A program made the translations under genes and the position numbers. From assembly GCF_964204645.1 (NCBI RefSeq), contig NC_134025.1, forward strand, positions 22,970,001 to 23,034,000: a DNA stretch of 64,000 nucleotides, read 5' to 3'. Shown here piece after piece: positions 4,701 to 64,000 of this stretch (positions within the stretch are counted from its first letter, which is position 1; each line of letters starts with the position of its first letter). Below the pieces are notes generated by a model. The model had not been told where the DNA came from. It worked only from the letters and a program-made list of their open reading frames with translations, and searched no databases. Source of the stretch: Tubulanus polymorphus (lineage: Eukaryota > Nemertea > Palaeonemertea > Tubulaniformes > Tubulanidae).

Positions 4701-5011
4701 AGTCATTCAGGGCATATATGCATTCATCACAAAAACACCCACGTAAGACTGGTCTTATTTGTTTATCTTATTTACACGACTGTACGACCGGCACCTAAAG
4801 CAATAAAGCAATGCGTACAGTTCTTACATATCAGACTAATACTTGGTTGTTGTAGCAGTCGTTTGTGAAAACTCGGAAACTGCAAGAACACACATCTCCA
4901 TCTTTTAATCAACTTAGTTAACATAAGATAAGATAAATGCACCCAATTATATTCATAAATTAAGTAGAATATGTATATACAACATTCTTTGAGAAATTGT
5001 GCCTGAGTAAC
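1705..5011. other. 3' flank of the MCT gene and gene-poor DNA
   Basis: The first few hundred bases are probably MCT 3' UTR. Possible AATAAA signals occur near 2266. An AT dinucleotide run lies at about 2565-2580. A CTGATGAAG motif sits near 2510. No open frame here shows codon bias, splice sites or a recognisable domain, and I see no gene in the remainder. Confidence 0.4.
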
Positions 5012-5293
5012 TCACCATGGAGGCGAATTCGAGTTACGTCGTTCGGCTTTATGTCCGTTTGAGTGCATTCCAGATGAGGCCATAGCTCTGGCGTACTGTT
5101 GGTGATCCTGGGCGTACATTAGCGACCCTCTTCTCATAGGAGGCGGCCCGTGAGGTGCGTATTTGCGACCGTCCTTGTTTTGTTTGTCAGTTCTGAACAT
5201 CTTGTTGCGTTCTTTTTGCTTGGAGATCTGCTTGGCGGTCATGTGAGATCCGTGCGCTCGCGGTTTGAAACAAACGCTCAGTAAAGCCCCCAT
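5012..5293 (-). CDS. Small basic protein with N-terminal acylation signal (paralogue A)
   Basis: A 93-residue frame starting MGALLSVCFK. Gly2 with Ser6 fits the N-myristoylation consensus. Cys8 is a likely palmitoylation site, and residues 11-44 are rich in Lys, Arg and His (SKQKERNKMFR). That combination usually anchors a protein on the inner face of a membrane. The tail is rich in Pro, Ser, Gln and Asn, looks disordered, and has no domain I recognise. About 25 of its first 43 residues match the gene at 13833-14105. In both genes an acceptor (TTACAG) lies 9-10 bases before the ATG, so each has an upstream non-coding exon. The start codon context (AACCATGG) is strong. The frame ends in TGA, but that stop overlaps a good splice donor (ATG|GTGAGT), so a spliced isoform with a different C-terminus is possible. 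Family and function are unknown to me. The conserved pairing argues the gene is real. Confidence 0.6.
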   Translation of the reverse strand: MGALLSVCFKPRAHGSHMTAKQISKQKERNKMFRTDKQNKDGRKYAPHGPPPMRRGSLMYAQDHQQYARAMASSGMHSNGHKAERRNSNSPPW

Positions 5294-5296
5294 GGT

Positions 5297-5302
5297 TCAC
5301 AT
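5297..5302 (-). promoter_or_regulatory. AUG-UGA start-stop element upstream of paralogue A
   Basis: If the acceptor TTACAG at 5303-5308 is used, the coding exon begins ATGTGAACCATGG. The first six bases are a start codon followed at once by a stop, nine bases before the main start. Such start-stop elements are known in other genes to stall ribosomes and lower translation of the downstream frame. The paralogue has ATTCGAGACG at this place and lacks the element. The role is inferred only. Confidence 0.3.
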
Positions 5303-8300
5303 CTGTAATTAAGGTAGCGATATTAATTTCAGAAGTCAGCCTGTCGCCCACTGAATTTTATGGCTTCGACTTAATCTGAATATCGAAGCCGTTCCAACCT
5401 TCCGAAACGTTAATTAATTGCATCCGTTCTGGCGATGCATTATTGGTTTTCAAGAGGCACGACATGTGTATTCGTCCACACGATGTCGTTGCATCTCAGT
5501 CATCACGCGTATAGACGCTAATTTTACCCAATGCGCCGTAAATGACCCAGAACATCGATTAGAATTTTATTCTCACGAAGCTTATAAGTCGAAAGGGTCA
5601 CTTCAACACCGTTGCAGTCATAATTAAACTAAATGCGACGAATAAAACGACCCGATTATTGTCCGTAGTTTTAAGAGATAAGTCGTTTTGAAATTAACGT
5701 TTTAGGATTAACGACGTGAAAAGCTATCGGACCGGACAACAGGTGCATTTCCGCACACCGTAGTCATGGTTACTGCAGTAGAAAGCATCAGCAGGTAGCA
5801 ACTTCGGCAGGGTTTCGCTGGTATAACTATTGAAATGTAAATTATTTTACGCTCGGTCGCATCCTCGTAAGTTGACACGATGCTTGTCGGAATGCATTTT
5901 TGACTTTCCGTTCCAAGAAAATCAAGTCAAAAGGTTATGAACTGCATAGTTGCACCGCAACTGTGCGTTAGTCATTACAAGTAGAATTTATTGGCAGGTC
6001 GTTGCTCGAAATGAAGAGGCCTCTGGGAACAAGAGAAGTTGGATTTCGACGTCGTTAAAGTATATCATGATATCACAATCTTTTAGCATAGGGTACACAT
6101 CTTAATGGCCACAGCAACCACTGATGAATTGCTGATACACACATCACCGGGAGATCGGCTTTCAAAAGCAATTACGGGGACGCCGGAAGAATTATGAATC
6201 TAATGGCAGACGCGTTTGAAATGCCATTCTTTTCAGTCGAATCTTGAAAAAATGTTGAATATCAACAAAATGAAATAACGAAAGTACCATAACCGCAAAA
6301 TTACCAAGGCAACCGACAGACAGGTTTAGCTAGTTTATCCAAATCAGCGAAATATGGTTGAATAGCAAGGATAATTTTACATTCACCTTTCCGTACGCGT
6401 TATGTAGAATGTCTTTTCTCGTTTTTCCGATCGTGAATCAGTGAAACAGGATGAAAAAAGAGGATTTATAATCATGGATACAATCCATTTGGATGGCAAG
6501 CGCGCATCCGTGATCGAGGAGCGCTGGGCAGCGAGAAACTGAGTACACACAACAACGGTGCTTTTATTATGATTTAGCCTGAGGATGTTTTTCCTCGAAA
6601 CGCGACATTTCATTAACTGCGCGAAAAGCAGATGATTGGAACTGATGCAGTCAAACCAAATATCTTACGACAAAGTCAAGCATATTGGTAAAAGGCATAG
6701 ATTAATGAGAAGAGCTTTCGTGGATTATTCCATTTATTGAATCAAATCATTTTGTATATCGTAGGATACTTTAAAGAATAACCCCTGTTTCGCTCCCGGC
6801 TGGTGCGGCGGGTTCGCAAGGGACACCAAAAAAAACCAAATCAAACGAAACCTACCGATTAGATAAATAACACGGGCAATCTCTATTTTAAGGTAAAACA
6901 AAAAAAACTTACCACTTCTTTATTGCCCGCGTACAAATATTCTTTGACAAGTTAGCGAAAATTCAATATGAGATTTGCTCCGAAATTCCCAATATTTCCC
7001 AGCTGAATTTCGGTTCCGTATGACTATTGTATTTATGTCGCATATCGCATACGTACTTCCACACATCGTCTCATTAATGATTTTGGCCTCTTCAAATATC
7101 AATATGTGCTAATTGTATAACGCTTAAAGCCAGAGGGATTGCAGTGGCCGTCGTACCTTATAATTCATGAATTCCTCGTTGAACTAGTCTGTGTTCAACT
7201 GCGTCTAACGCTCGAGAGAGGATAACAAACCTACCTTACGATCGTTGAAAATTCGAAAGAACAAGATAAAACTGAATCCGTATAAACAAACAAGAGGCAG
7301 CTGGCGAAATGCAGCAGGCAATTTCCTTTCTCGTGCTAAGATCCGGGTGGAATACGGCTCCGAAAAAAGAGAACATCATCAAAATTACCATTTAGGACCC
7401 ACTGCTCATTAGAGTTCGTTTATATTCAAGGGAAAGACCTAGCCGTCTTCCGTACGTACGGCAATAACTACTAGCAAGGTTGCCACATTATGTCCTAATT
7501 GATTTGCCCTTGTTAGAATTCTAACCTGCTTTACAATAAAAATTATCTACCCTGCAATTTTGCTAAATTATCTTGAAGAACGCGGCGGCGTCTTGGGGTC
7601 CATTATATACGATCTAAAAGATTTGAGAAAAAATCCCACTTTTGTTCGGTGATAACTATTTTGGTATTCCTTTCACGCTCCATTTTATATTCATTCAAAG
7701 GAAACGATTTTCCGTTTTGTATGAAAATCGAAATCTGCATATAACGAAAATCTTATCAAAATCTAAAACTTCGAGGTAATTTCAAGGTGATTTTTTTGTC
7801 AAATATGAAACATCAAGGAAATTAGTTCAGTTGTTACATCCTAATTTGAGTAACCCTGATGAGGCGTCATCATTCAAAATACAGGTTAAGATATTGAGGT
7901 TCACGGCAGGCGGCGGTGTACAAATCAAGCCCTCAGACGATGTGACGTGTTTTTCTAATTAAATTGACATCAGGTAATTGCGATATACGCGTCGAATCGA
8001 CGATGATTCAATTGTCGAACGCAATTTACTCAGTCGGGAAATGATATATATCGAATTACTTTGTCCGTGTAAAAAGCGGCAATCGATTCGACAATGTGCG
8101 AGAGTAAACCCCTGTTAGAGATCTTAATGCGTAGAAATTTATCGCAACCAGCGCTTTAAAATGGCGGTTGTAAACGTGCTATTCGTCGTCACATTTACGA
8201 TTTCCTTTTTAGTAATCGTTAACGGTGATCGATCGCCTCTAAAGATGAACTTCTCCAAAAAATAAGCTAACAGGCAATCTCATGGGATCTACTAACAACT

Positions 8301-10068
8301 GTACTGGTGGCTGCCAAAATTCGAACTCTCTTCTCTCTACTCGTTTTCCAACTTAACTACTCTCTCCCTCTACCAAGTTTCAACCACGTAATCTCTCCCT
8401 ACCAAATTTAGTATGGTTTCTACAGAATCTGCAACCTCCATCAACCACTCTCCGACTAGAAATATATTTCCAACCACCAACACTACATACCAAGTTTCTG
8501 AATCATGTTTTCTGAATTATTCCCTTAGACTAAGCTATCAACATTAAATTTTTTTTTTCTTCGTTTAAACCAACTGTTCACATTAAATCATTATTTTTAT
8601 TTGTTATTTGTTTCCCCAGACGTTATTAATATTTATATCATTATTTGATTAACCCTAGTCAACTATCAACGGCTAAAACAGTTAGCGAGAATTCAGCGAA
8701 CAGGGACGGCGTACGATACGCTTCTTGTGATTGAATAGACAGGTTACAGCCGCGACCGACCGAAGCTCAACCAAGTCGAAAGCATCTCGGCTTCAGTGAT
8801 CCAAGAAAAATATTCGACCAAATGGCCATCGGGGCGAATATAGCGTCAATATGTTTCAGATAACCTGCCTGTTCATCGGAATGGTTCATATTTCCCCTCA
8901 TTCGTGGCAGCATCGGGGAATAAGGTTATTCCATTAAGCTAGCAAGTAAGAGGAATGGCTATCATCCATTTTGAAAGCATCGCCAAAATCGTGACTCGGA
9001 AAAGAAAGAATGTCCGAATGATAGCTCGCACACCGCAGTAAATTCGAATCACTCCAAATACGTCTCAATTAATTTCAATTCTGTTACAATCGGATTATAG
9101 CCTTTTTAATTCATCGTTTGAACGGCAGTCTGTGCAATCGATAACCGGATTCGTTTTTCAATCGAATGAAAGCTTATACCCGTTTGCTGGCGACAACAAA
9201 TAAAAGCGCGCTTGTTGCTTTGCAGTAAGATTATTTCCGAGCGATTCCCCAGCGATATTCGCACCGAATCACTTGAAAAGATTCGAGAGCGATGAGAAGA
9301 ATTGGATTATCGAATATATTCCATAGAGATACAATACTTTATTGGCTGGGTCCCCCAATGACCTAACCTTAAAAAGCGCCATATGAGAGTCGATTCTACT
9401 GGTAGGCCTACTCGTCGTATTGGCACGTGAGAAAATGAAATCATTTTGGAATAACCTTGGCGCTGACGAACATGACGACGAACGGTGATATGATTTTGCC
9501 TGACAGGCATCTAACAGCACACGAGATTCGGTAATCAGGAAAATGTGAACAACCCATAACAGTTCTAGAACGCCAAAAACCGGATTGTAGAAAACGAATG
9601 CCACCGATGAAAATGACAGCAGGAAAAAATGCCACCAATGATTTTCTTCAACAGTCTAGAATGATGATAATAAAAATGCTACAAAATGTTATTTTCAGAC
9701 TTCTTCGATCCAGCTTCTATACACATTAGCTAAATTTCCCTTGAAATAGGAAATTGGAAATGGACATATCGTTTTTTTTTTTACTTCTTTAAGCTAGAAA
9801 TAGGCATTCTTTTGGTTATTTTGCAATTTTTCCGTAAGCAGTAATAGCCCATAGACATGCTTTTGAATCTTAATTTCACAATGAGTGTTAATGCAAGTTC
9901 TAATGCGGTCGAGTTAATTGCATGAAAACTAGATCGCAGCAAACTATGATTGTAGATTGAAGTTATTGATGATTGAAATATAAAATCTTAATATGGCTGC
10001 AAAGCAGCGATAACGGTTTTCTGTACCTTTTGCATTAGACTTGAAGTATAGAAATTGATAAGATCATT

Positions 10069-10093
10069 GCCGGGGATTCGAACCTGATATCAC
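10069..10093 (-). repeat. SINE-like fragment with tRNA B-box resemblance
   Basis: GCCGGGGATTCGAACCTGAT reads on the minus strand as AGGTTCGAATCC, the tRNA T-loop or B-box sequence. The same core with matching flanks occurs twice at 28956-29056 and once at 33950-33993. No acceptor stem or A box is visible, so this is a tRNA-derived repeat relic and not a tRNA gene. Confidence 0.35.
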
Positions 10094-11244
10094 AATCGGA
10101 GGAAATCGAGAATATTATTGAAATGGATGCCACTCTGATTCGGATATTCTCGGAGCCATCATCTTTCTTCGGCACATTAACCACGTCACAGATAAACGAT
10201 ATGTACGCAAGGTCCTACGGCTATTACTTACCCGCAACAGTACTATATTTCTGAACGGTATTTCTTTTAGTGTACTGGTCCAGAGAGACTTTATTCTATC
10301 TCTCGTCAGAATCAAAAATTACGTTTATGAGTTGTGTAGTCTGCGTACAGGTTAACAATTGAATAGAAAGATTAAGGATAATTAATCATTTTCCTACTGT
10401 GCAAAAAGTGGCATTTTTCCTGTGTCGTAAGATTTTTGGCATTTCTTTCTGGTCGCGTTGTTTTCGTTTACCATGAAAACCTGGTATGCAAGTTCTGGCA
10501 ATACATTTCCTCGAAAATCTGGTATGCGATGTCCAGTGCGAATTTGTGAATGAATAATGTAAACGTACAGAAGTATAATAAGGTTTTTAAGCTGCGCAAA
10601 AACAGTCTGATTTTTGTAGATACGTATGCATTATTAATTTGGAATCGGAAAATACATATGGGAGACCCAGTGCAATGTGTTGCACACTGAATATCCTAGA
10701 TTTTCTCAAATTACCCTTCAATAATCATTATGAGAACCGTTGCATCTGTGTATAAGTGTCGCAAATTACGAAATTTCCGTTACCAATTTCATTTCGCCTG
10801 ACGACTTCCTTGCGAAATTAACTTATTTCGATATCATATCACTGCCTATGCGTGCATGTGTTTGCGTGCGTATATTTAAAACACCTGAAATAGGGTTTAG
10901 TTGATTACCGTTATAACAGTTGATTTTTGCATGGGGAAATGAATGATGCATATGGGAAAATGTGACTTAATTTCATTTACACCTAATATACGCTCAGAGG
11001 GACGCACCAGATCCCGCAACATATAATAATCACGGCCCTTCGCTTCGGAGCAAGATGCATATTTATGGCAGTCACAGTGGACATTGTGTTTGTTTCAAGG
11101 TTTTTACCGCACAACAATAGATTGTGAAGTCATCCATCAGCGTTCGTGTACATGACTCGAACATCAAAGTATATGACGCGAATATTGACACGGATTGCCC
11201 GTGTTTTAAAATCTGAGATGTCAAAGTATCTAGCGAAAGTACAG

Positions 11245-11650
11245 TTACGAACAGAACGACTTTTAAGCCTAGCGCACATCGACACTGCGATTGGAGACAC
11301 AACTAGTTGCTACGTACCGAACGATTACCCCGCGCACATCGAAATCTAGTTACAACCGGTCAGTTGCAGCAACTGCATGGCGCGTGTCGATCGTCGAGAT
11401 CCAGAGCGCGCACATCGACGGATATGACTGCGATTGAGTACAACCAGTCGCTCAAAAGTAGAACATGGGCAACTGGCTGGAACTGGAGATAGATCGACGC
11501 TTACCAATCGTAAGCTCGCTCACATCGACACATTTAAGCAACTGATCGCATCCAGCCAGTTCCTCACATGCGCCGAAAACTGCCTTGCAACTAGTTGTCT
11601 CAAATCGCAGTTTCGATGTGCGCTAGGCTTTAAACGTTGCATTCGAACGG
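11245..11650. repeat. Foldback element with nested GCGCACATCGA repeats
   Basis: The left arm (about 11255-11315) and right arm (about 11586-11640) are near-perfect reverse complements. Both contain GCCTAGCGCACATCGA and CAACTAGTTG. Inside, GCGCACATCGA recurs at 11333 and 11407, and GCTCACATCGA at 11518, with AACTGGCTGG and CCAGCCAGTT facing each other. The structure suggests a non-autonomous foldback transposon. There is no coding potential beyond chance frames. Confidence 0.55.
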
Positions 11651-13832
11651 TGCGCGGTAATAATGCTAGAGGTAGAAATGTCTGAAGGAAATACTGGATA
11701 GTTATGTACAGAATATGCTAGAGATATAGTAGGAAAAAATGGCTTCACTTTAATCTAATTGATGACAGCAAGCTGGTGAAAAAAAACTTTTCTTATTCTT
11801 TTGTCATCCCGTGCCATATATGCCAAAACTAGGTGTCAAAAATAAAGGTGACAGAGATATGAACGAAACAAAAATATTGCATTGGAAAAATTAGAGAGGA
11901 AAAAGTCATAAACGCGCACCTGGTTGGAACTCAAAAACTGTAGACGGTAAAAAACTGGACATACGAGTAAAAAACTAGCTTATCATTTTGGCAAAATGTC
12001 TCGGAAATACGAGTGTTGGCAAGGAACGAGTTCCTGTAAAGGGAAACTGAGTTTCAAGAAAATCAACCAATACGAAACCATGATAGAAGTTGTAAGATAA
12101 CTTCTCCTTTTCAGCATCAAACTACTTTTCAACTTATTAGAAACTAATACAGTAAAATATGATATATTATCATATCTTAGAAGGCTTTTCCATTTCATCA
12201 AATTAATCATGATCGTATATCATGCTGTATTTAAGTAATAAATGGGCATCTCCGTAGATTATTACGAATTTGATATACTTCGAACCGTTATTCATTAACT
12301 ATTTAATCATAGCAGCCGACTAATTGAATCGCTTCGTCATCCAATCAAATAGATGAGAGGGAAAATCCCTATTTCAAGTTTGAGAAGAAAAAAGGAAACG
12401 TGGGACGATTGTCGGTTGGTAGCTGATGGATCTCTATGACTTTTGTCTGAAGTCATATAGAATACGATGCTAATCCCTCTAACCCATTTCTTCACATCAA
12501 AAGTATCCGAACGGCTTCGATTAATTCAATGCGACAGAAACGCGCGAATTAATCGATCACGCGGCTGTCAGAAAAATACTGATCAACAACTACCTCCGTC
12601 GTTGTTGCCAATTAGCAAAGATTACATTTGCTGAGCAATAATCGACGGTGCCTCGTAGTTTTGTTGAGTAGTTTTGTTGAATTGTTGAGTAGTTTTAACT
12701 CGTCTTTCGCGGTGTAGTTATGCGGCAATTTCGATTTTGGCACCGTCACCTCGTCAACACCTCACGTATCATGGTTTACAGCATCGCTATTGTCAACGAT
12801 TCATGAAGACTTTATGATTTTTTTCTATTTTGTATAAGCCTAAGTTTAACCATTAACCATAAGCCTCATTCATCTACCAACTTTCGAAGTGGATATGGAA
12901 TAATTGTAATCATCGCCGTTATGTATAAACCTAAGTTTAGAATAAGCCTCGTTCATCTAATTTTCCGACGTGCTGGAAACACCGTCGCGCCGGAAGACGC
13001 ATCAAACCGTCAAAATTAATTGCAGGTTCGTGCAATCTTGTAATTTATGATATCGCCGTTAAATTTCACGAACTAAAAGAAAGATGAAGCCTATAAGAGT
13101 TGTGGCAGCCGATGTCTCTTTTTTCTTTATAGCCGAGTTCAAATGAACGTTTGCACTTGACGGTGATGCATTTGCCGCTGGCTTAAAGCGTTGAACAGTT
13201 CCTTCCTCGCGCACAGTTGATTTCTGCTTGTAACGAGTCTTTAATTGGTATAGGGAAGAAAGTCTAACGTCAGGAGCTCTCGAGGGTAAGTTCAGGTCCA
13301 TGAAAAGAAATTAAGTTACCACTTCCCCTGAGGGTTACAGCCACAGACATACATGTTTGAGCGGCTGCGAGGCGCGAATGCCGGGCACGAATGTTGTCAA
13401 CGCGTCTGACAGAAGGAAAAATGACCCCAGAAATTCACAAGGACACTTCGCCAATGAACGGCAATGATATAGATGTCATCAAATCAAATTTTTACTAAAT
13501 CAACATATGAATTCAATATATTCAAAATTATTTTTAGTCAAATTCATATTCATAGATAAATGAATAGAGTTTTTGAATTTTTTCACAAATTGTCACTTTC
13601 TCTAAATATTTCGCTCAGATAGATTCTTTACGTATGGGTACACATACTCACCCGAGAATATAGCAGCGAATCCATTTTCATGCCTTTGACAATTGTACGA
13701 TATTGCATAAAATACAAAAGTATATGTATATACAATACACACTGGAATCATCAGTTCTCTAATATTATGTAGGGGTAGAACTGAAATATTTACAAAAACG
13801 AATGTCGTGAGTTTGTTTTCGGCGACGACATT

Positions 13833-14105
13833 TTAGCTGGCGGTGCCATACGAGCCTCGCGATGGCCGACGATCGCCGTCAACACCGTTTGACCTTGAAC
13901 TGTTTTTGCCGCCGTCGTCGTTGGGCGTGAGGAGCGATGGTCGACGCGGATTCACCGGCGGTGGGGTCGAGTGTCGTCTGCCGTCGACGTTCGGATTGTC
14001 CGACTTGAACAGTTTCGATCGTTTACGTTGTTTCGACACTTGACTGGCGGATAAATGCGAGCCGTGGTGTTTGGATTTAAAACAAATGCTCAACAACGAT
14101 CCCAT
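13833..14105 (-). CDS. Small basic protein with N-terminal acylation signal (paralogue B)
   Basis: A 90-residue frame starting MGSLLSICFK and ending in a plain TAA, so the coding sequence is complete in one exon. Gly2 and Ser6 fit N-myristoylation, Cys8 is a candidate palmitoylation site, and residues 10-35 are strongly basic (KSKHHGSH, SKQRKRSKLFK). The C-terminal half is Pro, Ser, Arg and Asp rich (PPPVNPRRPS, GDRRPSRGS) and predicted to be disordered, with RRPS-type sites that basophilic kinases could use. It is paralogous to 5012-5293: same strand, same acceptor-then-ATG layout (TTTACAG then ten bases), and about 25 of 43 N-terminal residues identical. It probably arose by tandem duplication. 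Less likely, the two are alternative coding exons of one gene. I do not recognise the family. Confidence 0.6.
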   Translation of the reverse strand: MGSLLSICFKSKHHGSHLSASQVSKQRKRSKLFKSDNPNVDGRRHSTPPPVNPRRPSLLTPNDDGGKNSSRSNGVDGDRRPSRGSYGTAS

Positions 14106-14239
14106 CGTCTCGAATCTGTAAATAGAAGAGATGTTTTTTTTTCATAAATCTTACGTTTCGAAGCAGGGCATGTGATGCCATGTCAATAATGAAATATGTT
14201 CAATGAAATAATGGATGTATGGACAACTTTCATTGTTTT

Positions 14240-14305
14240 GTTCTTACGTTTCGGGCAGAATCCTTCCAATAAAAGATGGGAAGGATTCTGCCCAAAACGT
14301 AAGAA
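14240..14305. repeat. Near-perfect hairpin (short palindromic MITE)
   Basis: Two arms of about 27 bases (GGGCAGAATCCTTCC and GGAAGGATTCTGCCC at their core) surround an 11-base loop. The outer ends read TTCTTACGTTT and AAAACGTAAGAA. The end sequence (G/A)AAACGT(A/C)AGAAC is shared with the larger hairpin at 49508-49659, so both belong to one family. Confidence 0.6.
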
Positions 14306-14480
14306 AAAAAAACTTTATGTGAGTTCTCTCAATGCTATTCATCAACACCGTATGTAGTCTCAACTATTTACAATGTTATTTTATAGTGTTGAAGAAAATT
14401 AAAACCCAAATCGTAAGAACCATTATCAAAAGACAATTTTGAATATATACAGTCATTCGTTTCTCTAATTTTCCCATAAG

Positions 14481-14559
14481 AATGTACTTCATTTGTGTGA
14501 CCCCTTCAGGAAAATTTGCCAACAATATGTACTTCATTAGTGTGACCACTTCAGGAAAT
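14481..14559. repeat. Tandem duplication of about 45 bases
   Basis: ATGTACTTCATT, GTGTGACC and CTTCAGGAAA recur in the same order at 14482-14512 and 14527-14557. Two copies only, in non-coding DNA. Confidence 0.6.
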
Positions 14560-19543: not shown

Positions 19544-20538
19544 ATGTGGTATATTATGTCCAGAACACAAGAAAATCATAACTTATCCGAACGGCTCATT
19601 AGATCTATCAGTAATTGGGAGACATTTACTGGAGGCAATGACGATGTGGAGTATCTATTGGAGCTTGGTGCTGATGTAAACTGTACCCACGGGATGCTGA
19701 TGCCACTGCATTGTGCGTGCATGGTCTGTGAAATTGAAACTGCTAAATTGCTCATTGCCAGAGGAGCGAATGTAAGATCATAATTTGTATTTCAATGCAT
19801 ATACAATTTATCAACTAATAATGGCCACAAACGCATTTATTTTTGGTTTTACTTTTTCCTAGGTCCATGTATTTAATAACTGCATATAATTTTACATAGG
19901 TTAATGCTGTAGATGGATATGGACGAGCTGCCATCCATTATGCAGCCGAAAAGGACACTCAATGCATCGATATACTAGCCGAAAATGCAGCTAATCTGGA
20001 CATTCCCGATGGCAACCAAGCTCGAGCCTTGCACTGGGCGTCATTTAAAAACAACGTCGAATGCGTTAAGCGTCTTCTGTCCTACGGCGCCGATGTCAAC
20101 TCTCAGGATTTCAATCGCGACTCGCCACTTAGTTGGGCAGCGCACAAAACTAACCTGGAAACGATTCGAATTTTATTGGATTACAACGCCGACGTGTCGT
20201 TAACGAATTTCAACGGACAAACGGCGCTTCTTCGCTGCGCACTGATGCAAGCGACCGGTTTGAATTCGCCCAATAGAGACGAAGCGTGCATCGACCTGTT
20301 AGTTCGAGCCAGCGGAAATCTTAATCTACGAGATGCGAAAGGTCAACTTCCGGCGATTATATATTCCGATAACCGGCTTAGGGAAATTTTGTTACCGCAA
20401 TGTATGGAACCGCGAGCACTACAGGATATTTGTAGATGTGCTGTACGGAAACTTCTAGGACCGAATTATTTACCTCATACGGTCTACCGGTTACCGATAC
20501 CGACGCGGTTAAAGGATTTTCTCCTTCTAAGAATCTAA
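19544..20538 (+). CDS. ASB8: Ankyrin repeat and SOCS box protein 8 (ASB8)
   Basis: Two exons, 19544-19771 and 19900-20538, join in phase across a GT-AG intron (AAT|GTAAGA ... ACATAG|GTT) to give 288 residues, the same length as human ASB8. The N-terminus MWYIM, then LSERLIRSI, is the ASB8 signature. Four ankyrin repeats follow (GADVNCTHGMLMPLHCAC, GYGRAAIHYAAEKD, ALHWASFKNNVECVKRLL, SPLSWAAHKTNLETIRILL), and the last 40 residues form a SOCS box (LQDICRCAVRKLLG, LPIPTRLKDFLLL). SOCS-box proteins bind elongin B/C and Cullin-5 and bring ankyrin-bound substrates to a ubiquitin ligase in the cytoplasm. The start is the first ATG in frame. The gene is convergent with the GON7-like gene, whose stop lies 576 bases downstream. 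Confidence 0.94.
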
Positions 20539-60400: not shown

Positions 60401-63400
60401 TACAAAATTTTTGGTCAATTTCCTCCATTCATATAGAAACCAACCTGGTTTATTCCTACTTTTGCGGTGGGGAATGTAACTTTTAGTTTCGTTTTCTTCA
60501 GGGTGACCATTCTCATTTTACCCATGCCCCTAATCCCATGATACCCAGCAAAAAAGGAGACGTTCTCTGCTTAGTGCCTTCATAGGCCTATTTGGCCAAT
60601 ATCCAATGTACATGATTTATATTCAACAACTAAGTGTTTTGTATATTAAGTCATCCCAGGTCCCGAAACATACAAATTAAGTGTCGTAGTTAACAGTATT
60701 TGTATACACAAATTGATTGATGATATCGACTTGAACAGTGGCCAATAATTTGAATAAGTAGGCAGCACAGATGGCTGCGCCTTCCATAGATGGAAATACC
60801 TTATTATGATATTTTCCACAGATGGTAGGGTTGCGTGGCCATATTTCCTTTTACGTATAATAGAAACTGTCATTTACATACCCATGCCTTACAAGGCAGA
60901 GCATATAGTAGGCCTACTTGATGTATGATAGATCACATGTGTTACTGAAAAATATTATCATCTTCAGAAACATGTACAGCACTACACCAATAGAATCCAT
61001 AGAACCATAGTAAATTAACTAATAGGCTTATGTGAACTTGTAATAGGTAATCGCTACGACAATCAATTATCGAAGAGTATTAGCATAAATCAAGCTTATG
61101 ACGAATATGATGAAGAAAATGCCCAGATATAAGTTAGGCCCACTGTCTAAAAATTCTTGTGAAAAGTTTATGTTTGGCTATTATCAAAAGATATATTTCA
61201 CAAAAAAAGTTTTTATTTTCCTTTTTAATTGATTATCTTTAATTACGGGGCATTTCTACAAGGGATGGCATAAATTAAAGATCTAAAATCTCGATCGATC
61301 ACCCATAATAACTCAATCTAGATTGAGTTATGTTGTTGACTGACTAATAAATCTGTAGCAGTTTAACATATAGAGAATAGGCTACAGGTAAATAGTCGAG
61401 AGAGGAGTTCCTGTATAAAGTAGTAGCTATGTTTATACAAGATGTATGCCGAGAGAAAGATGCTATTTTAGATAGCTATTCCATACTTGACTGAAGCTAT
61501 TTATACACCGTTCCCCAAGTTCCTTTCTTTTCAAACTATGTAGCAAAAGCGCAGTATCACCTTTGGATAAATAGTATCAGATGTCAGCCAGCTGGCATTT
61601 ATGGAGGATAAGCCTACAGAATATGGAATCCTTATCCAGCTTTAGCGCCTGCATCCAGGGGTGCTTTTAGTCAGAGGTAGACATAAAAGTCAGCATACCA
61701 TAATAATAGGCAACCATATGTAATAGGCCTATTACCAGGTGCTTGACTTCCACAGACATCTTAGAACTGAAATGTGTTGCTAATTTTAACTCGAATTATC
61801 AATGAATGTTATTTTGTAAGACCACATTCCCTGCAGGTTCTTTGTGTGTAGATCCATCAGTACAAGGCATGTACACACAGCGCTTGCTACTAATGGAACC
61901 GGCTAAAACAAGGAAAGCATCTCCAATTATATCAAGAATTGCGCACTATTAAAGCAACGCCTTAGTAAAATACAGTAATGTTTTAAAAATGGCTGTTTTT
62001 AGAAAGAACCGAACTTACGAATGGACTTAAACAGTACATTTCACCGAAAATATACATGAAACTTTCATTTTTTAGAGATGATGATAATACAATTACCGAT
62101 TCCACATTTCAAAAATTAATTTCAAACTTTTCAATACACAAACTGTGTGACAAATAGATTTAAAAAAACATTTAATGATTTTCTTAATGATAATCAAGAG
62201 ACTATAGATGGGCATAAAGATCCTCCGGGTAAATCAATATTAGGGCCTGTTTGGACATAATTTCATTGAAATCCACACTAGATTGCCCATGTTTTCATAT
62301 AGAACATCACCTTTACCTTTGCATTGTTTTCTTCTTCGGTGACGGCGTACGTCAAATCAGTTTCTTCGAAGCCAGTCGGGTTCATTCTCTGATCGATATC
62401 GTGTTGCTGGCCCGGCTCGACGGGAGCCTCGTCCGGAGAATTAAGGCACGTCTGAATGAGGGCTTTTCCACTTTCACTCGTAATCATAGGCTGTAATTTG
62501 CGCGTTGCGAACGTATAGACATGCCCAGTTTCACTGGCGACTAACAACATAACTTGAGTTCCAGTCAATGTCGAAAGTTCGTAAGCCTAAAAATACAATC
62601 GATTATAAATTATATGGACATTAAACGGAATTCAGATCTTTAAAAAATCATTTCTTTTTAGATGGAATAAAATTGTTCACTATTCAGGCACGGGTCCAGG
62701 GCCATTCAGTGACTACAGCACAGTGAAAAAAGGGCACCAACTTTGAAAAGGGCCAGCAGTATTAATGCCCAGCGAGCGAGTTTGAGTGCCATTTATTGGT
62801 ATCATGCCACTAAATTAGCCTTCACATTCAATTTGCTTCGGCCTTTTTTAGATTTTGGGGCGAAATTTGCCTTTTGATTAGATTTATTGAGCAACAATAT
62901 TGTCTCTTTTAGAATAGTGCCCTTTTGAGTAAAGGAAAATGCCTTAGATTGCCTTTTTTGATTTTGGGCAATTCATTTTCATTCACATTTTGCTTTAGTC
63001 CTAGTACAGAAAGGCAGTTATCTTTCATGGCGCACAAATTGTGTGCCCTTTTATCTACTTTTTTCCCAAAACAAAATTTTTCAAGGGCATTTGAAAACTG
63101 CAACTACCGCACGTGCTGCATGTTCGATAGTCTGGATCCGCGCCTGCTATCAGGTCCTCCCCCAGAAAATTAAGGAACTTCGTGCAATTTCAGCACTTAT
63201 TACTGCTCTAAGCAATACTGTGGACTTTCGTGGACTTTCGAGAAAGGGGTTTGAACCCTCCGAACCCGCTAAGACTTTATTAGCAATAAGTTAGATATTG
63301 AATAATATTTAGTAGGCCTAATTGTAGAACATTAAACGGCTTCCCAAATCAATTAAGAACTTCATTAAAAACGATTGCAAATGGACAAAACAAAGTCTCA

Positions 63401-63782
63401 CTTTTTTCATTATTCCAGTTTTTCTTTTACTGAATGTGGTGTATCTTCTTAACTTGTTTTCGATGAACTCCATTTTGATTTTGACGCGACCTTTCGTCTT
63501 TTTTCCTGGCTTAGGGCCATCGGTCATCTTTGGCGGCTGTTGAATGTAATTCAAACGATTGTACTCGTCCTCTGATTCCGAATCCATATCACTAGCGTGA
63601 CGTTTGACAACTGTCACTTGATGTTGCGAAGTTCCAACTCCTGATGATGACAAGTTATTGAAATCATTACTGTTGAAGCCATGAGTTTGGGGGCTCCTCT
63701 GGCCGTTGACATTTAACGAGGCCTGAAGCGACGAATACTGTAATGTCCCGTAATCGTCTTGGCGACCTTCGATCGACTGCAT
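57498..63782 (-). CDS. SRF: Serum response factor (MADS-box transcription factor)
   Basis: Eight coding exons on the minus strand: 63782-63402, 62586-62317, 59517-59118, 58651-58544, 58445-58371, 58059-57880, 57795-57758, 57599-57498. Phases close to 517 residues (human SRF 508). The MADS domain is split between exons 1 and 2 exactly after KRKTGIMKK. It reads GRVKIKMEFIENKLRRYTTF, then AYELSTLTGTQVMLLVASET, then GHVYTFATRKLQPMI, nearly identical to the vertebrate protein, followed by the SAM extension (ALIQTCLNSPD, TGFEETDLTY). The acidic Ser-rich stretch SDMDSESEDEYNRL before the MADS box matches the position of the phosphorylated region. The C-terminal part is Gln, Ser, Thr and Asn rich (NQQQQQQAALLRIPT, LAQQQQQQQNSGG), an activation domain. 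SRF binds CArG boxes as a dimer in the nucleus with MRTF or TCF partners. An acceptor (TTTCACAG) 11 bases before the ATG implies a 5' non-coding exon. Confidence 0.97.
59718..59771. repeat. Single GGATCTGCCCCTG end with poly(G) tract in SRF intron 2
   Basis: TTTTAGGGGGGGGGGTTGTA precedes CACCGCCCTCTGGATCTGCCCCTG, the right end of the GGGGCGGATCCAG family. No facing left end was found within a few hundred bases, so it is a truncated copy or its boundary has decayed. Confidence 0.35.
62685..63146. mobile_element. 462-bp inverted-repeat element in SRF intron 1
   Basis: It starts CAGGCACGGGTCCAGG and ends CTGGATCCGCGCCTG, whose reverse complement is CAGGCGCGGATCCAG. The inside has short repeated blocks (GCCCTTTT, GCCTTTTTT, GATTTTGGG). 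It belongs with the GGATCCAG-end family. No transposase frame is present. Confidence 0.55.
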
Positions 63783-64000
63783 TGTTTTCAATTCTGTGAA
63801 ATATCAATTAAACTCCGAGAGACTCGCGATACTCACGAACTGCAGCAGAAAATTACTCAGCCATAACCTAACAACACCCTTTGCTAGCTTAGTGCTCGCG
63901 CGCACTTGATTAAGTTCACATGGAAAAAAGCTCTTTGAACGCGGCAAAAGATGAATATTTTTCATTCATATCCTATATATATAGATTTACTTAATTTGAA
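63783..64000. promoter_or_regulatory. SRF upstream flank at the window edge
   Basis: The coding exon acceptor lies at about 63794 (minus strand), so most of this is the first SRF intron or the promoter. CCTATATATATAG at about 63970 only loosely resembles a CArG box and is not counted as one. Confidence 0.2.

Follow-up and report, generated by a model that had tools for sequence, protein, structure and literature searches.

The window, a stretch of 64,000 nucleotides from Tubulanus polymorphus, contains two small open reading frames on one strand whose products both start MG(A/S)LLS(V/I)CFK. The question that they raise is whether the two are related genes, and if so what their products might do. 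The coding exons, located from the open reading frames and by genome search, are listed here with the acceptor region preceding each.

5012..5293, minus strand: gene 1 coding exon, 93 aa, MGALLSVCFK...RRGSL...RRNSNSPPW
5294..5333, minus strand: gene 1 acceptor region, ttaattacag/atgtgaaccATG, AG 9 nt ahead of the ATG
13833..14105, minus strand: gene 2 coding exon, 90 aa, MGSLLSICFK...RRPSL...RRPSRGSYGTAS
14106..14145, minus strand: gene 2 acceptor region, tatttacag/attcgagacgATG, AG 10 nt ahead of the ATG

The two genes lie 8.5 kb apart and encode about 90 residues each, as an earlier sequence-only reading of this DNA had described. Its estimate that about 25 of the first 43 residues match is reproduced on recounting (25/43, made up of 8/10 in residues 1–10 and 17/33 in residues 11–43), and over their full length the products are 43% identical. 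In a search of the organism's own 267.8-Mb assembly each protein retrieves the other, at E values of 4e-15 and 7e-15. This is beyond chance, and gene 1 and gene 2 are the paralogous pair that had been proposed, with a common origin. No third copy was found in the ~268-Mb genome when it was searched with each protein, and the only matches there to the degenerate pattern MGxLLSxCFK with zero mismatches are gene 1 and gene 2 themselves. The sole match with one mismatch, on contig C2, reaches a stop after 18 residues and is therefore not a third copy.

The coding exons begin 9 nt (gene 1) and 10 nt (gene 2) past an acceptor, which are the distances reported earlier. The 40 nt upstream of the two ATGs align with each other better than Markov shuffles do (P 0.005), and the common acceptor is therefore probably older than the duplication.

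The first 43 residues, here called the head, and the remaining tail have evolved differently. Identity in the head is 0.63, 0.81 and 0.40 at codon positions 1, 2 and 3 respectively, and substitutions avoid positions 1 and 2 (P 0.00055, site shuffling). The NG86 method gives a head dN of 0.34 against a dS that is saturated, so that no exact dN/dS ratio can be quoted; with positions 1 and 2 kept, the ratio is nevertheless not near 1, the value that would have spoken against the earlier reading. The most conserved stretch is residues 1–10, with a dN of 0.09, and residues 11–43 show the codon-position constraint on their own (P 0.00145, site shuffling) and have the features HGSH, AxQxSKQ and DxxNxDGR in common. 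Residues 1–43 are under purifying selection and the pair is old. Conservation reaches residue 43, which is beyond any lipid signal's needs. The tail has a dN of about 1.06 and a dS of about 1.2, and is thus overall without measurable constraint. The suggestion that the head is selected is therefore upheld, but not the suggestion that a membrane-targeting head alone is selected, given the constraint on residues 11–43 and the motifs kept in the tails.

These motifs also contradict the description of the tails as differing freely. Residues 54–58 read RRGSL in gene 1 and RRPSL in gene 2, a PKA-type site at the same position in both products (RRxS followed by a hydrophobic residue). A second RRxS, likewise PKA-type, is found close to each C-terminus, and the sequence SNG is also common to both tails. 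Composition shuffles give P values of 0.0005 and 0.0075 for the presence of at least two RRxS in the respective tails, which serve as guides only, because the motif tests were chosen after the sequence was read. Any claim of a conserved motif rests here on two sequences, which is a thin basis.

At the other end of the protein, MGALLS and MGSLLS both agree with the pattern for an N-myristoylation start (MGxxxS/T, with a small uncharged residue at position 3). A cysteine near Gly2, as expected for dual myristoylation and palmitoylation, is present in both as Cys8, the commoner Cys3 being absent, and the net charge of the head is +7/+8 in the two. An N-myristoylation-type start with a nearby cysteine and a basic cluster is therefore plausible. 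It had been called a textbook myristoyl-palmitoyl-polybasic anchor; the start, Cys8 and the charge are in keeping with such an anchor, but the word textbook is too strong, since the cysteine is at position 8 rather than 3 and position 7 is Val or Ile rather than basic, which is not the commonest dual-acylation layout.

AlphaFold, run on the weak input of a two-sequence alignment, gave a mostly unstructured model of low confidence (mean pLDDT 61, pTM 0.22), and the proteins are best regarded as largely disordered. The lone predicted element is a short helix at residues 20–33, with a pLDDT of about 75. It is not amphipathic: the hydrophobic moment over residues 19–35 is 0.15–0.16, a value reached by about 65% of shuffles.

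Downstream of both genes there are elements that match the Pumilio consensus TGTANATA, as follows.

4974..4981, minus strand: TGTATATA, Pumilio-type element in the gene 1 3' flank, within a 38-nt block common to both flanks
4769..4776, minus strand: TGTAAATA, Pumilio-type element in the gene 1 3' flank
13787..13794, minus strand: TGTAAATA, Pumilio-type element in the gene 2 3' flank
13727..13734, minus strand: TGTATATA, Pumilio-type element in the gene 2 3' flank, within the common block

Each 300-nt 3' flank thus holds one TGTATATA and one TGTAAATA, and the form UGUANAUA, looked for in the putative 3' UTRs as the mark of a Pumilio target, has two matches per flank. At least two elements occur in 11 of 2548 segments, each 300 nt long, and the joint chance of the two-element pattern in both flanks is about 5e-5 by Markov shuffles. 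The 38-nt block, which holds TGTATATA, is common to the two flanks at P 0.009 in a strict-gap alignment. The elements suggest that both mRNAs may be under translational control.

The earlier reading could not place the family, and neither could the searches made here. Pfam gave sub-threshold matches only for both proteins; NCBIfam, and the PDB searched by sequence and by profile, gave no relative; viral contigs gave pattern matches only and no relative; and a literature search on the N-terminal strings gave nothing relevant. A weak match to Herpesvir_UL11 (PF10813) covers the first 8–11 residues only, at 12.0 bits against a cut-off of 21.2 and E 0.18–0.19. Being under the cut-off and with no relative among the viral contigs, it was rejected as homology, and mirrors the common acylation-type start. 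A likeness of residues 20–43 to the N-terminal helix of G-alpha was also rejected, as there is no Pfam match and no GTPase domain follows.

Known systems offer likenesses of design. MARCKS and MARCKSL1 are myristoyl-electrostatic switch proteins with a Lys/Phe effector domain. The present proteins resemble them in predicted N-myristoylation, disorder, a basic segment and phosphorylatable serines, but carry their charge in the N-terminal head, without a Lys/Phe effector domain, and their sites are RRxS; Pfam gives no match to the MARCKS family at E up to 10. smAKAP (C2orf88) uses an amphipathic helix to bind the regulatory subunits of PKA. It is similar in its length of about 90 residues, a predicted myristoyl/palmitoyl anchor and a link to PKA, but the short helix modelled in the present proteins lacks the amphipathic character expected of one that binds RI or RII. 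In a designed system, a farnesylated peptide with Kemptide repeats suffices for a PKA-driven membrane translocation switch (PMC8361095). What is alike is a short, basic peptide that carries both a lipid anchor and sites of the RRxSL type; that switch is synthetic and farnesylated, and demonstrates only that the logic can work.

We hypothesise that gene 1 and gene 2 are an old tandem duplicate of a single gene, and encode small, mostly disordered, basic, acylated membrane proteins that would be regulated by PKA or another basophilic kinase. To this explanation as a whole we assign a probability of about 0.45. Here acylation, membrane location, phosphorylation and Pumilio control are what we infer. 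The explanation is supported by the paralogy, the two genome copies, purifying selection on the head, the MGxLLSxC start and the head charge; by the tail RRxS pairs, the RRxSL at the same position and the low-confidence unstructured model; and by the Pumilio-type elements in both flanks and the designed precedent. The uncommon layout of Cys8 with Val/Ile7 and the lack of amphipathicity in the helix count against it. In the proposed mechanism, Met1 would be removed and Gly2 then N-myristoylated, with Cys8 possibly palmitoylated. The +7/+8 head, with the short basic helix at about 20–33, would keep the molecule attached to a membrane at its inner surface. Phosphorylation of the tail RRxSL and RRxS by PKA or another basophilic kinase would weaken membrane binding or make a docking site, and the Pumilio-type elements in the mRNAs would provide translational control.

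Two other functions have to be weighed. The anchor may be real, while the block 11–43 recognises one particular protein; the kinase sites would then be incidental, and the proteins would be membrane adaptors rather than electrostatic switches. HGSH, AxQxSKQ and DxxNxDGR are kept beyond what charge alone would need, in residues that are constrained by themselves, but the best-kept part of the otherwise diverged tail is RRxSL, and we regard an adaptor as somewhat unlikely. It is very unlikely that they are basic peptides that bind no membrane, being nuclear or binding nucleic acid, with the MGxLLS start a coincidence: a high K/R content and a mostly unstructured model would suit this, but residues 1–10 are the most conserved, consistent with an N-myristoylation start.

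The layout of the transcripts raises further alternatives, which depend in part on two donor sites.

5010..5018, minus strand: very strong donor ATG/GTGAGT, overlapping the gene 1 stop, intron starting at about 5015, rank 14 of 6849
13646..13654, minus strand: strong donor CGG/GTGAGT, about 181 nt past the gene 2 stop, rank 17 of 6849

The ranks are among the 6849 GT sites in the window, scored with a generic donor matrix written for this analysis. Because the gene 1 stop codon overlaps such a donor, the C-terminus of gene 1 is uncertain, and if the donor is used the 93-aa frame, or both frames, would be one coding exon of a protein that is longer or has another C-terminus. We consider this quite unlikely: gene 2 has a plain stop at almost the same aligned position, tblastx did not find a downstream exon common to gene 1 and gene 2, and the 38-nt block just 3' of the gene 1 donor is as a retained 3' UTR would predict, and so favours an unspliced one. 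The two frames could also be alternative terminal exons of one unit with a common upstream non-coding exon, or could receive a trans-spliced leader, rather than having separate cis 5' exons. They have a common strand and a common acceptor position, no duplicated 5' exon is recognisable upstream of them, and the SRF gene in the same window (62278–63791, minus strand, PF00319) also has an AG acceptor, 11 nt ahead of its ATG. However, nothing positive indicates exon sharing, and the Ciona spliced leader was not found, a result relevant to Ciona-like tunicates only; we think this arrangement unlikely. Cellulose synthase was likewise looked for and not found; each of the two absences speaks against a Ciona-like tunicate, though neither proves the point, and conserved 18S strings and COX1 had no match either. 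The shared-exon or trans-spliced arrangement concerns transcripts, and can be compatible with acylated, kinase-regulated proteins.

If that main explanation is true, a tiny protein would unite lipid anchoring, a patch of charge and sites for a kinase, which is close to the least that a membrane switch under signalling control requires, and the pair would offer a compact natural test case for such a switch. The lipid-anchored basic design is ordinary among cell-signalling proteins. It is doubtful whether one may go further and see here a so far unnamed animal family of small acylated proteins that work as natural Kemptide-type membrane switches, its two genes retained in tandem and their mRNAs controlled by Pumilio. 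Should the main explanation fail, this is another undescribed small-gene pair, of a kind often missed by annotation.

It is worth adding some observations on the surrounding DNA, whose other genes put the source among the animals. Inside the putative intron directly 5' of gene 2, at 14236–14310, there is a hairpin with a near-perfect 27-bp stem and an 11-nt loop (MFE −47.1 kcal/mol, z −12.8). It occurs at a single genomic place, and is either microRNA-like or a recent inverted duplication. Also upstream of gene 2, a 45-nt tandem repeat is present in two copies that are 82% alike (14467–14556). Between the two genes lies a MITE-like inverted repeat (11261–11634), with 39-nt arms that are 92% complementary and 296 nt apart. 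The other neighbours in the window include a gene with ankyrin repeats and a SOCS box (19544–20538), which we take to resemble vertebrate ASB8, an MFS transporter and an M28 peptidase.
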